DNA from: Candidatus Margulisiibacteriota bacterium
GTDB taxonomy: Bacteria > Margulisbacteria > WOR-1 > O2-12-FULL-45-9 > XYB2-FULL-48-7
NCBI GenBank assembly: GCA_028702315.1
Contig: JAQVPA010000008.1
Location: 1-37,800 of the forward strand
Direction of reading: 5' to 3'
Length of the DNA stretch: 37,800 nucleotides
The notes below the pieces were generated by a model, which had not been told where the DNA came from, made no database searches, and worked only from the letters and a program-made list of their open reading frames with translations. This document shows, piece after piece, positions 438 to 1,992 of this stretch (positions within the stretch are counted from its first letter, which is position 1; each line of letters begins with the position of its first letter). The translations under genes and the position numbers were made by a program.

Positions 438-493
438 GGAGAGGTAGCGAAGTGGTCAAACGTCCGTCTCCGGCGGATAAATCAGACGGCTTA
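438..493 (+). pseudogene. tRNA-Tyr 5' fragment A, anticodon arm replaced by a palindrome
   Basis: Bases 438-462 are identical to the first 25 nt of the intact tRNA-Tyr at 859. The next 10 nt of the tRNA (the 5' strand of the anticodon stem and the loop up to G34) are replaced by the 15-nt near-palindrome TCCGTCTCCGGCGGA (463-477). The match then resumes (TAAATCAGACGGCTTA) and stops at 493. There is no anticodon, T-arm or 3' acceptor strand, so it cannot give a tRNA. It forms a direct repeat with fragment B, and the two flank the GIY-YIG gene. Confidence 0.85.
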
Positions 494-510
494 AATGTGG
501 GGTGGCAGCG

Positions 511-771
511 GTGGACAGTTTTCATGTTTACGTTTTAAAAAGTCTTTCTTTTGGTTGTTTATATGTTGGCAGCACAGGAAACCTGGATAAACGGGTCGTT
601 CAGCACAACGAAGGTTTTTCCCGGTTTACCAAAGGCCGGCGGCCTTGGACTTTGATATATAAAGAAAGTTATAATTCCCGAGCTGAGGCAATGAGGCGAG
701 AAAAGTTCCTCAAGTCAGGCCAGGGACGTGAATTGTTAAAGAAGTTGATCTACTCCAACGTGGAGAGGTAG
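511..771 (+). CDS. Single-domain GIY-YIG endonuclease-family protein
   Basis: The 86-aa product is a stand-alone GIY-YIG domain of the UvrC-like/UPF0213 type. It shows VYVLKS for the first strand, LYVGST for the second, the conserved Arg in NLDKRVVQH, and the late AxxRREKFLK motif that supplies the acidic residue. Such proteins are small predicted nucleases, and relatives include homing and repair enzymes. GTG at 511 is chosen because GGGGTGG lies 5 nt before it and the domain starts right after; an in-frame GTG at 502 is the alternative. The gene sits exactly between two direct-repeat tRNA-Tyr fragments, and its last codons and TAG stop (GTG GAG AGG TAG) lie on the 5' end of fragment B. This suggests a mobile or amplified cassette, which is inference. 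Confidence 0.8.
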   Translation: MDSFHVYVLKSLSFGCLYVGSTGNLDKRVVQHNEGFSRFTKGRRPWTLIYKESYNSRAEAMRREKFLKSGQGRELLKKLIYSNVER

Positions 772-821
772 CGAAGTGGTCAAACGTCCGCCTCCGGCGG
801 ATAAATCAGACGGCTTACGCC
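762..821 (+). pseudogene. tRNA-Tyr 5' fragment B, anticodon arm replaced by a palindrome
   Basis: This is the same structure as fragment A: 25 nt of tRNA-Tyr, then the perfect-arm palindrome TCCGCCTCCGGCGGA (787-801) in place of 10 tRNA bases, then TAAATCAGACGGCTTACGCC. It differs from A by one base over the 56 nt they share and matches the tRNA slightly further (to 821). It has no anticodon and no T-arm. Its first bases supply the stop codon of the GIY-YIG gene. Confidence 0.85.
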
Positions 822-858
822 CCTTTTTATTAATGGGGTTGGTCAACTTCGATGATGT

Positions 859-941
859 GGAGAGGTAGCGAAGTGGTCAAACGCATCTGACTGTAAATCA
901 GACGGCTTACGCCTTCGAAGGTTCAAATCCTTCCCTCTCCA
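859..941 (+). tRNA. tRNA-Tyr (anticodon GTA)
   Basis: The acceptor strands GGAGAGG (859-865) and CCTCTCC (934-940) pair fully, and the discriminator A is at 941. The anticodon stem TCTGA/TCAGA closes the loop CTGTAAA with anticodon GTA at 893-895. A long type II variable arm and a T-arm (GAAGG TTCAAAT CCTTC) follow, as expected for bacterial tRNA-Tyr. The CCA end is not encoded (TTTTA follows). It is the only complete member of a local family that also includes fragments A, B and C. Confidence 0.95.
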
Positions 942-1039
942 TTTTATTGTTTTATAAAAAACGCTGCTAATCCCTCCCCTACCCATGGCCCAAAAAATTA
1001 ATTTGCCCGCAATTTGTTAAACCTCTGCCGTTATAAATT

Positions 1040-1759
1040 GTGAAATTTGGCACAGTTTTTAACGATATACATACAAGAGATGCATATATGTTCATAAGTT
1101 TACTCCAAAAACCCTCAACAAGATCTGGCCTAAGCAGGGAGACCTCTTTTACCCCAACAGTTAAAGGGATCAATAGTCAACCAATTTTGCCGCCCTGTTT
1201 ATATAAAACCCATGAACTTACAAGCATAAGATTATTAATTAACGTCGCCAATTCTGCCCCCGATATTTTATCAAAAATCGACAATAGCATTATTAGGGAC
1301 GTCCAGCTTGTTGTAGAAAGGCTTCATTCGGCCTTAGTTAGGACCGTCGCTAATGAGTGTTTATATGTTTCAATGAAGCTCGTTGAACATCTAAAAGAAG
1401 CATTGCCAAAAGCCGAGAAAATATATGTGTTAAGCTGCGAGAGTCTTGATGAGAAAAGGCTTGATATCCATTATTCAAAAGATTGGAAAAGCGCGATAAT
1501 CTGGGTGAATCATCATATTGCATATTTTAACATTGGTAGTTTACATTTTACCGTTGATGTCACCGCAAAAAGCTATCTAGATGGGAGGTCCAATGCCGAG
1601 GTGTTCGTCGCCTCTTCTTTTAATGAATTAGAAAAAATGTTGTGTTATCGCTATGGCGGAAAAGGATGGGAACAAGTAGACCCAGAATTAGCCGCCTGGG
1701 TTTCCGGCAGCCGCCTGTTTAAAAACCTCACACACAAACACAGAAGACAAGTGAAATAG
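1040..1759 (+). CDS. Orphan protein of up to 239 aa between tRNA-Tyr and its displaced 3' fragment
   Basis: This is an open frame with no obvious ribosome site. The first codons have an unclear start; ATG at 1088 (MFISLLQ) or later ones are alternatives to 1040. I do not recognise the family. The C-terminal half looks like a compact alpha/beta domain and contains NHHIAYFNIGSLHFTVDVTA. The His and Asp pattern there recalls papain-like/transglutaminase folds, but a catalytic Cys is not convincingly placed, so this is weak. It has no tyrosine- or serine-recombinase signature. It fills most of the 927-bp segment between the intact tRNA-Tyr and fragment C, so it may be cargo of an integrated element. 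Confidence 0.5.
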   Translation: MKFGTVFNDIHTRDAYMFISLLQKPSTRSGLSRETSFTPTVKGINSQPILPPCLYKTHELTSIRLLINVANSAPDILSKIDNSIIRDVQLVVERLHSALVRTVANECLYVSMKLVEHLKEALPKAEKIYVLSCESLDEKRLDIHYSKDWKSAIIWVNHHIAYFNIGSLHFTVDVTAKSYLDGRSNAEVFVASSFNELEKMLCYRYGGKGWEQVDPELAAWVSGSRLFKNLTHKHRRQVK

Positions 1760-1790
1760 CATATCGAGAAACTTCTTGCTAACCACTCTC

Positions 1791-1840
1791 AGTCGTCTTC
1801 AGTGGTTCACAGTGGTATGCAGTGGTGCGTAGTCGTATAT
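1791..1840. repeat. Five tandem 10-bp units, AGTSGTnnnn
   Basis: The units are AGTCGTCTTC, AGTGGTTCAC, AGTGGTATGC, AGTGGTGCGT and AGTCGTATAT, exactly 10 bp apart. The first six bases are conserved (AGTGGT or AGTCGT) and the last four vary. The period is close to one helical turn, as in arrays of protein-binding sites. It lies between the orphan gene and the tRNA-Tyr 3' fragment. Confidence 0.8.
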
Positions 1841-1868
1841 ATTATCTGCCTTTACGAGGGGATTTTTG

Positions 1869-1928
1869 CTGACTGTAAATCAGACGGCTTACGTCCGCCT
1901 TAGGCGGATTCAAATCCTTCCCTCTCCA
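1869..1928 (+). pseudogene. tRNA-Tyr 3' fragment C with a palindrome replacing the variable-arm/T-stem bases
   Basis: CTGACTGTAAATCAGACGG and the following CTTACG (1869-1893) match tRNA-Tyr from the anticodon stem on. Ten tRNA bases (CCTTCGAAGG, 912-921) are replaced by TCCGCCTTAGGCGGA (1894-1908). The match then continues through TTCAAATCC to the acceptor end, discriminator A and the TTTTA that follows. It lacks the 5' half. The arrangement of intact tRNA, insert and displaced 3' tRNA end resembles the footprint of integration into a tRNA gene. Confidence 0.85.
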
Positions 1929-1992
1929 TTTTAATTTCACCGCAAACCATTGTTGTCGTTTTGGCCAAGTGCTAATATTATTGGCAAAACCT

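Follow-up and report, generated by a model that had tools for sequence, protein, structure and literature searches.

How does one intact tRNA-Tyr gene come to lie among three broken copies of itself, each of them interrupted by a short palindrome? The locus that raises this question belongs to a 37,800-nt stretch of DNA that was analysed at its full length and is referred to as the window. The recurrence of its layout points to an undescribed kind of hairpin insertion that is linked to putative tRNA-cutting nucleases.

Broken tRNA-Tyr copies and the nuclease gene between them

The original prediction had described one intact tRNA-Tyr next to two 5' fragments (A and B) and one 3' fragment (C), in which 15 palindromic bases replace 10 tRNA bases with clean junctions after the same three bases. 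All of these copies are present as stated, except that C begins at position 1868, one base before the predicted 1869 (Table 1). Base-for-base comparison with the intact gene also bore out the exchange: in A, B and C exactly 10 tRNA bases are exchanged for a 15-base palindrome of the TCCGYCTNNGGCGGA type, and ACG precedes the junction in all three fragments. A and B are identical to the intact tRNA-Tyr at 25/25 bases before the palindrome, and the tRNA sequence resumes after it at full identity (16/16 bases in A and 20/20 in B).

Table 1. Features of the tRNA-Tyr locus, with positions counted from the first base of the window
Feature	Position	Strand	Remarks
Fragment A, tRNA-Tyr 5' part (positions 1-51)	438..493	+	anticodon 5' half-arm exchanged
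Palindrome of A	463..477	n/a	TCCGTCTCCGGCGGA in place of CATCTGACTG
GIY-YIG nuclease ORF, 89 aa, GTG start	502..771	+	UPF0213/SLX1-like; PF01541, E 1e-13
Fragment B, tRNA-Tyr 5' part (1-55)	762..821	+	
Palindrome of B	787..801	n/a	TCCGCCTCCGGCGGA in place of CATCTGACTG
Intact tRNA-Tyr(GTA), 83 nt	859..941	+	
Orphan ORF, 239 aa, between intact tRNA-Tyr and fragment C	1040..1759	+	no Pfam match above cut-off
Five direct repeats AGTSGT, 10-bp spacing	1791..1836	+	like recombinase arm-type sites
Fragment C, tRNA-Tyr 3' part	1868..1928	+	attR-like
Palindrome of C	1894..1908	n/a	TCCGCCTTAGGCGGA in place of CCTTCGAAGG (T-stem 5' strand)

Within the window, the exact palindrome pattern occurs only at the A, B and C sites, and a search allowing up to two mismatches gave 10 matches against 2.3 expected (0/100 shuffles). 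Genome-wide counts were obtained from pattern searches; across the 1.53-Mb assembly the exact pattern is found at 10 sites (12 strand matches), three of which are A, B and C. Two pattern matches in 23S rRNA were rejected as insertions, since alignment shows a helix of similar length at the same place in relatives, i.e., ordinary helix tips. Rfam 15 returned nothing but tRNA above the gathering score in the window. An assembly error, named at the outset as a possible source of the fragments, was ruled out because the same 10-base exchange is seen at this site of tRNA-Tyr in L021, whose genome represents a different family within the class, and because both junctions are occupied by a compound form of the palindrome in L019, which is from the family of the window itself. 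The palindromes of A and B differ by one base and have both junctions in common, so that a single event that was later copied is a more probable origin for these two fragments than two hits. The independent places are those of A and C.

This probable common origin was overlooked in the original prediction, as were the tandem-duplication layout, the attR-like character of C and a GIY-YIG nuclease gene located between A and B. The encoded protein has the catalytic Tyr, Arg and Glu of the GIY-YIG domain; Y10, Y21, G23, R31 and E55 are invariant in the family, and R66 and E67 nearly so. By sequence, and also by its AlphaFold model (mean pLDDT 88.7), it is closest to the UPF0213 protein BH0048 and to Slx1. 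The TAG stop of the ORF lies inside the first bases of fragment B (GGAGAGGTAG), and at related loci the same TAG lies inside an intact tRNA-Tyr, which suggests that B probably began as the restored intact tRNA at the end of the GIY-YIG unit and was disrupted only afterwards. Relatives in a phage collection reach an identity of at most about 42%, and therefore no recent phage origin is seen.

Fragment C lies behind the AGTSGT repeats, a combination of 3' tRNA duplication and arm-type repeats as in tyrosine-recombinase tRNA elements, and resembles an old integrase scar. Similar repeats with 10-bp spacing precede tRNA-Tyr 3' fragments in two other genomes (G019 and G027); among the integrase-type tRNA-Tyr 3' fragments, the one in G027 has a hairpin and those in G019 and G002 have none. 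These repeats would favour the reading that A, B and C are all ordinary integrase scars, i.e., decayed att-type duplications of tRNA-Tyr in which the palindromes are incidental. That reading is nevertheless decidedly improbable: A and B are 5' fragments with a GIY-YIG gene between them, which contradicts it for these two, the layout recurs at many tRNA types, and ORF and Pfam searches of the interval revealed no integrase gene and only the orphan ORF, for which no relatives were found in 37 related genomes.

Hairpins in tRNA loops of other genomes

The order of truncated tRNA with hairpin, GIY-YIG gene and intact tRNA is a recurring layout in the 37 related genomes and in named records from other phyla. 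UPF0213-type GIY-YIG genes are present in 32 of the 38 genomes, mostly adjoining two copies of one tRNA, one truncated and the other intact. The genome of the window has two more such loci, one at tRNA-Gln and one at tRNA-Pro, and in both the 5' fragment bears a hairpin; a fourth GIY-YIG gene lies downstream of a tRNA-Gln, where no fragment was detected. Hairpins in tRNA fragments beside the gene were also found in records of Kerfeldbacteria, Liptonbacteria, Falkowbacteria, Moranbacteria, Berkelbacteria, Acidobacteria, Syntrophaceae and one member of the Bacteroidota. Altogether, 37 of the 5' fragments next to an intact tRNA could be analysed, and all of them bear a hairpin, 30 by alignment (insert of at least 8 nt) and 7 by eye, the latter (L015, L017, L039, L040, L043, L052 and L065) showing either an exchanged arm or, where the tRNA breaks off, a hairpin; one of these is doubtful, as the hairpin of L039 could be the natural anticodon stem. 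A score of the longest perfect stem (13/37) was not discriminating as a hairpin test and was not used.

Local fragments accompany five of the 48 tRNAs in the genome of the window. Three of them are the GIY-YIG loci, and the other two, at tRNA-Arg(cct) and tRNA-Val(cac), have a TCCCG..CGGGA hairpin with no nuclease gene seen alongside. Hairpin-bearing fragments at L318, L322 and L123 have no adjoining nuclease gene, so that the nuclease would there act in trans or have been lost. Five other GIY-YIG genes adjoin the RNase P RNA gene and form one clade.

Some loci deserve separate mention. In L033, L034, L035, L036 and L070 the UPF0213-type gene lies directly by the RNase P RNA gene, in a clade that is well supported, and several of those RNase P RNA loci have a long GCCCCCACACCAACTT..AAGTTGGTGTGGGGGC hairpin. 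In L017 (1878-2150), tandem tRNA-Pro 3' fragments contain the reverse complement of the palindrome of the 5' fragment (CCCCGATTTCCAATCGGGG versus CCCCGATTGGAAATCGGGG); the hairpin therefore occurs in both orientations. Downstream of the tRNA in L019, L030 and L314 there is a conserved non-coding block of GAAAAATGCCATGTCCCGGAGC-like sequence and GC-rich hairpins, mostly between the tRNA and its 3' fragment, which may be a further hairpin element.

The exchange of 10 for 15 bases turned out to be the rule for the tRNA-Tyr type, whereas in most other cases the hairpin has been inserted without loss of any tRNA base. Among the 43 inserts that remove no tRNA base, 36 touch a cloverleaf loop (22.2 expected, P 9e-6) and 30 are wholly contained in one (17.6 expected, P 1e-4), and every one of the 11 T-loop inserts is at TTC^RA. 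The junctions are clean and show no constant short target duplication, only partial tRNA copies.

A related double-hairpin element, TCCCG..CGGGATCCCG..CGGGA, was sampled by its pattern alone and is found in 0-16 copies per genome, with none in a backward control. The flanks at 54 of these sites were joined and then compared with intact tRNA and tmRNA genes. Matches across the junction were obtained for 34/54 sites versus 8/78 random joins from the same neighbourhoods, and 23/54 sites lie exactly at GTTC^RA, against a background of 0.0015 per position; the remaining tRNA-embedded double hairpins are mostly in the D-loop region. Where longer context surrounds a tRNA- or tmRNA-embedded example, an intact gene is nearby in 10/13 and a GIY-YIG gene in 3/13. 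In viral contigs, 0/44 sites with the double-hairpin pattern lie in tRNA, so the tRNA link is not common to similar viral patterns.

By the same flank-join test, the exact palindrome of the window (TCCGCCTNNGGCGGA) lies in tRNA sequence in 0/45 dispersed copies, and it was rejected as a general tRNA-seeking element; the CCTGCCTGCCGGCAGGCAGG class scored 2/46. Copies of both classes are nested in other inverted repeats to a modest extent only. The palindromic element with a preference for hairpin bases that was originally envisaged is therefore recognizable in the hairpins that sit in tRNA loops with clean junctions in many genes and genomes, but the expected genome-wide link between the exact palindrome and tRNA failed. 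Strong tRNA preference is a property of the double-hairpin class; at the tRNA locus the short palindrome is associated with truncated copies of the tRNA, usually on either side of a GIY-YIG gene.

Further sites illustrate the contexts of both kinds of element. Short palindromes lie within hairpin stems in L153, L273 and L169, the first two of which are apparently terminators. Double hairpins occupy the T-loop of duplicated tmRNA 3' ends in L334, L340 and L366, with an intact tmRNA gene near L334 and L340. At about 30500-30800 of contig C41 in the genome of the window (G000; L099, reverse strand), a TCCCGATG..CATCGGGA inverted repeat encloses an intact tRNA-Val(CAC) and occupies the place of the anticodon arm of another, broken tRNA.

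The closing stem of the double hairpin (TCCCG../..CGGGA) is conserved, dispersed copies fold into one or two hairpins, and stem positions 6 and 7 are paired in 91% and 87% of cases versus 65% expected. Such covariation of the closing stems might indicate that the fragments act as RNA, either as a structured leader of the nuclease mRNA or as a decoy or antitoxin for a tRNA-acting nuclease, with the hairpins under selection; the fragments also keep the tRNA start and lie upstream of, and co-directional with, the ORF. We consider this improbable, as any DNA palindrome would show stem pairing and the same elements are found in 3' fragments that lie downstream of tRNA and tmRNA genes and have no ORF in their vicinity. 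Mobilization of REP-like palindromes by a Y1 (RAYT) transposase is hardly credible as the source of the hairpins: Y1_Tnp genes are present in 24/38 genomes, but none is found in the genome of the window or in G005, G013, G014, G022 and G028, although tRNA fragments with hairpins occur in all of these genomes. For the genome of the window, whose completeness is about 90%, RAYT mobilization is thus largely refuted.

Hairpin class, nuclease clade and a proposed two-part system

The GIY-YIG genes lie at their presumed targets, and the type of target follows the protein phylogeny. On a GIY-YIG tree of 82 columns with many open forks, and with hairpin classes assigned by hand from motifs, hairpin class changes 8 times versus 18.0 times for shuffled labels, and target RNA 19 times versus 32.9; for either trait, 0/200 shuffles reach the observed value. 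The closest pairs from different genomes share their hairpin class in 32/40 cases, against a base rate of 25% of all pairs, and close pairs with different target RNAs do so in 33/41. Pairs from the same genome share it in 5/11, at times across GIY-YIG clades, so that a host effect exists. Hairpin class therefore appears to track nuclease clade, a link that is strong but, given the short tree, the hand-assigned classes and the host effect, not final.

An unknown agent with a preference for the loops of RNA genes could instead move the hairpins, which would be kept only in tRNA copies that duplication had already left dead, and the GIY-YIG genes would be separate passengers that favour tRNA. Hairpin-bearing fragments do exist without a GIY-YIG gene, and dispersed copies are modestly nested in other inverted repeats, e.g., terminators, as such an agent would allow. 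We regard this as rather unlikely, because hairpin class follows nuclease clade across genomes and target RNAs, and because a hairpin is present in all of the 5' fragments by GIY-YIG genes described above but absent in 2/3 integrase-type tRNA-Tyr 3' fragments.

What is observed is the layout and its recurrence, the placement in loops, the GTTC^RA site of the double hairpins and the linkage of hairpin class to nuclease clade. With somewhat less than even confidence, we propose that the locus is one instance of a widespread two-part mobile system composed of a GIY-YIG nuclease and hairpin elements at loop sites. As the first part, a free-standing SLX1-like GIY-YIG nuclease would cut genes for structured RNAs (tRNA and perhaps tmRNA and rnpB), often at loop sequences or structures such as the GTTC^RA of the T-loop. 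As the second part, short palindromes or double hairpins would end up at these loop sites during repair, which would leave a partial tandem duplication of the tRNA with the hairpin at the cut. Only cells in which selection keeps an intact tRNA copy would survive, and the outcome would be a hairpin-bearing tRNA fragment followed by the nuclease gene and the intact tRNA, with the hairpin destroying the cut site in the broken copy. Cutting, entry of the hairpin during repair and selection for the intact copy are the steps that we infer. The intact tRNA-Tyr is 100% identical to its counterparts in G001 and G012, two genomes in which no full GIY-YIG unit is seen at the locus; the occupied site thus has no immunity in sequence, and protection of the intact copy must come otherwise, possibly from low activity or from an SLX1-like dependence on structure.

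It may even be, and we advance this with considerable reserve, that a minimal SLX1-like nuclease opens the loops of tRNA, tmRNA and structured-RNA genes, that its cognate hairpin is inserted, and that an intact copy is always left or rebuilt, with a hairpin class specific to each nuclease clade in the manner of a transposase and its ends. These considerations suggest a possible function for small GIY-YIG genes of the UPF0213-like type, which are widespread; many hairpin-split tRNA copies, moreover, are overlooked by tRNA finders. Short palindromic repeats are common in bacterial genomes and their movement is mostly unexplained; palindromic repeats that are tied to tRNA loops, to the GTTC^RA position and to one protein family make such mobility directly testable.

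Comparison with known systems

Our searches of open-licence papers did not turn up any account of tRNA-loop hairpins next to GIY-YIG genes in bacterial chromosomes. As far as these papers go, the initial statement that no such system is known thus stands for the combination, but each of its parts resembles something already known, on the one hand the free-standing GIY-YIG nucleases found at tRNA genes, on the other the hairpin elements of mitochondria. The 89-aa nuclease is related in fold and sequence to UPF0213/YhbQ and Slx1. Slx1 is a structure-specific nuclease and the partner of Slx4; to our knowledge, neither UPF0213/YhbQ nor Slx1 has been tied to tRNA fragments. REP/BIME elements with RAYT are dispersed short palindromes like those described here, but the genome of the window has no Y1_Tnp and the elements occupy other sites. 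Rickettsia palindromic elements, which are recognized by membership of a sequence family and by in-frame insertion into protein genes, were also considered for comparison, and the literature search on them returned nothing. Tyrosine-recombinase tRNA elements also produce a partial tRNA duplication by an intact tRNA, and C is like such a scar. In contrast to them, there is no integrase here, A and B are 5' fragments, and att sites are without hairpin inserts.

Mobile palindromes are well represented in mitochondria. The GC clusters of yeast mitochondria are short mobile palindromes with an AG target duplication, for which intron endonucleases have been proposed as helpers (PMC4478555), sponge RHE are mitochondrial mobile hairpin elements (PMC2800124), and the double-hairpin elements of Allomyces (Paquin et al., 2000) are cited there. 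They share with the elements analysed here mobile palindromes or double hairpins, conserved stems, variable loops and, for some, a location in RNA genes. They differ in being organellar and, as described there, in having neither a cognate free-standing nuclease nor a retained intact copy of the tRNA, whereas the elements described here reside in bacterial chromosomes without an AG-type duplication.

The closest parallel for the nuclease part may be SegB, a free-standing GIY-YIG protein of T-even phages, which cuts tRNA genes at the motif RAWTSGAAC and drives tandem amplification of tRNA-Tyr together with segB with the help of microhomology that the 5' end of tRNA-Tyr shares with the 3' end of segB (PMC13096335). 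The reverse complement of this motif, GTTCSAWTY, corresponds to the tRNA T-loop, inside which the double hairpins sit, and the full motif is present at 7/23 of the GTTC^RA double-hairpin sites. As with SegB, the locus has a free-standing GIY-YIG gene by tRNA-Tyr, and here too the stop of the ORF falls in a tRNA-Tyr 5' end. In contrast, SegB is a phage protein and we found no mention of hairpins in tRNA loops in PMC13096335, whereas the proteins described here are UPF0213/SLX1-like single domains of about 89 aa encoded in bacterial chromosomes. Since the SegB motif coincides with the T-loop and tandem tRNA-Tyr copies are involved, we propose that the GIY-YIG proteins of these loci would also act by cutting and repair, which suggests a connection between the locus and the recent observation that tRNA-Tyr is duplicated by a GIY-YIG nuclease of a phage.
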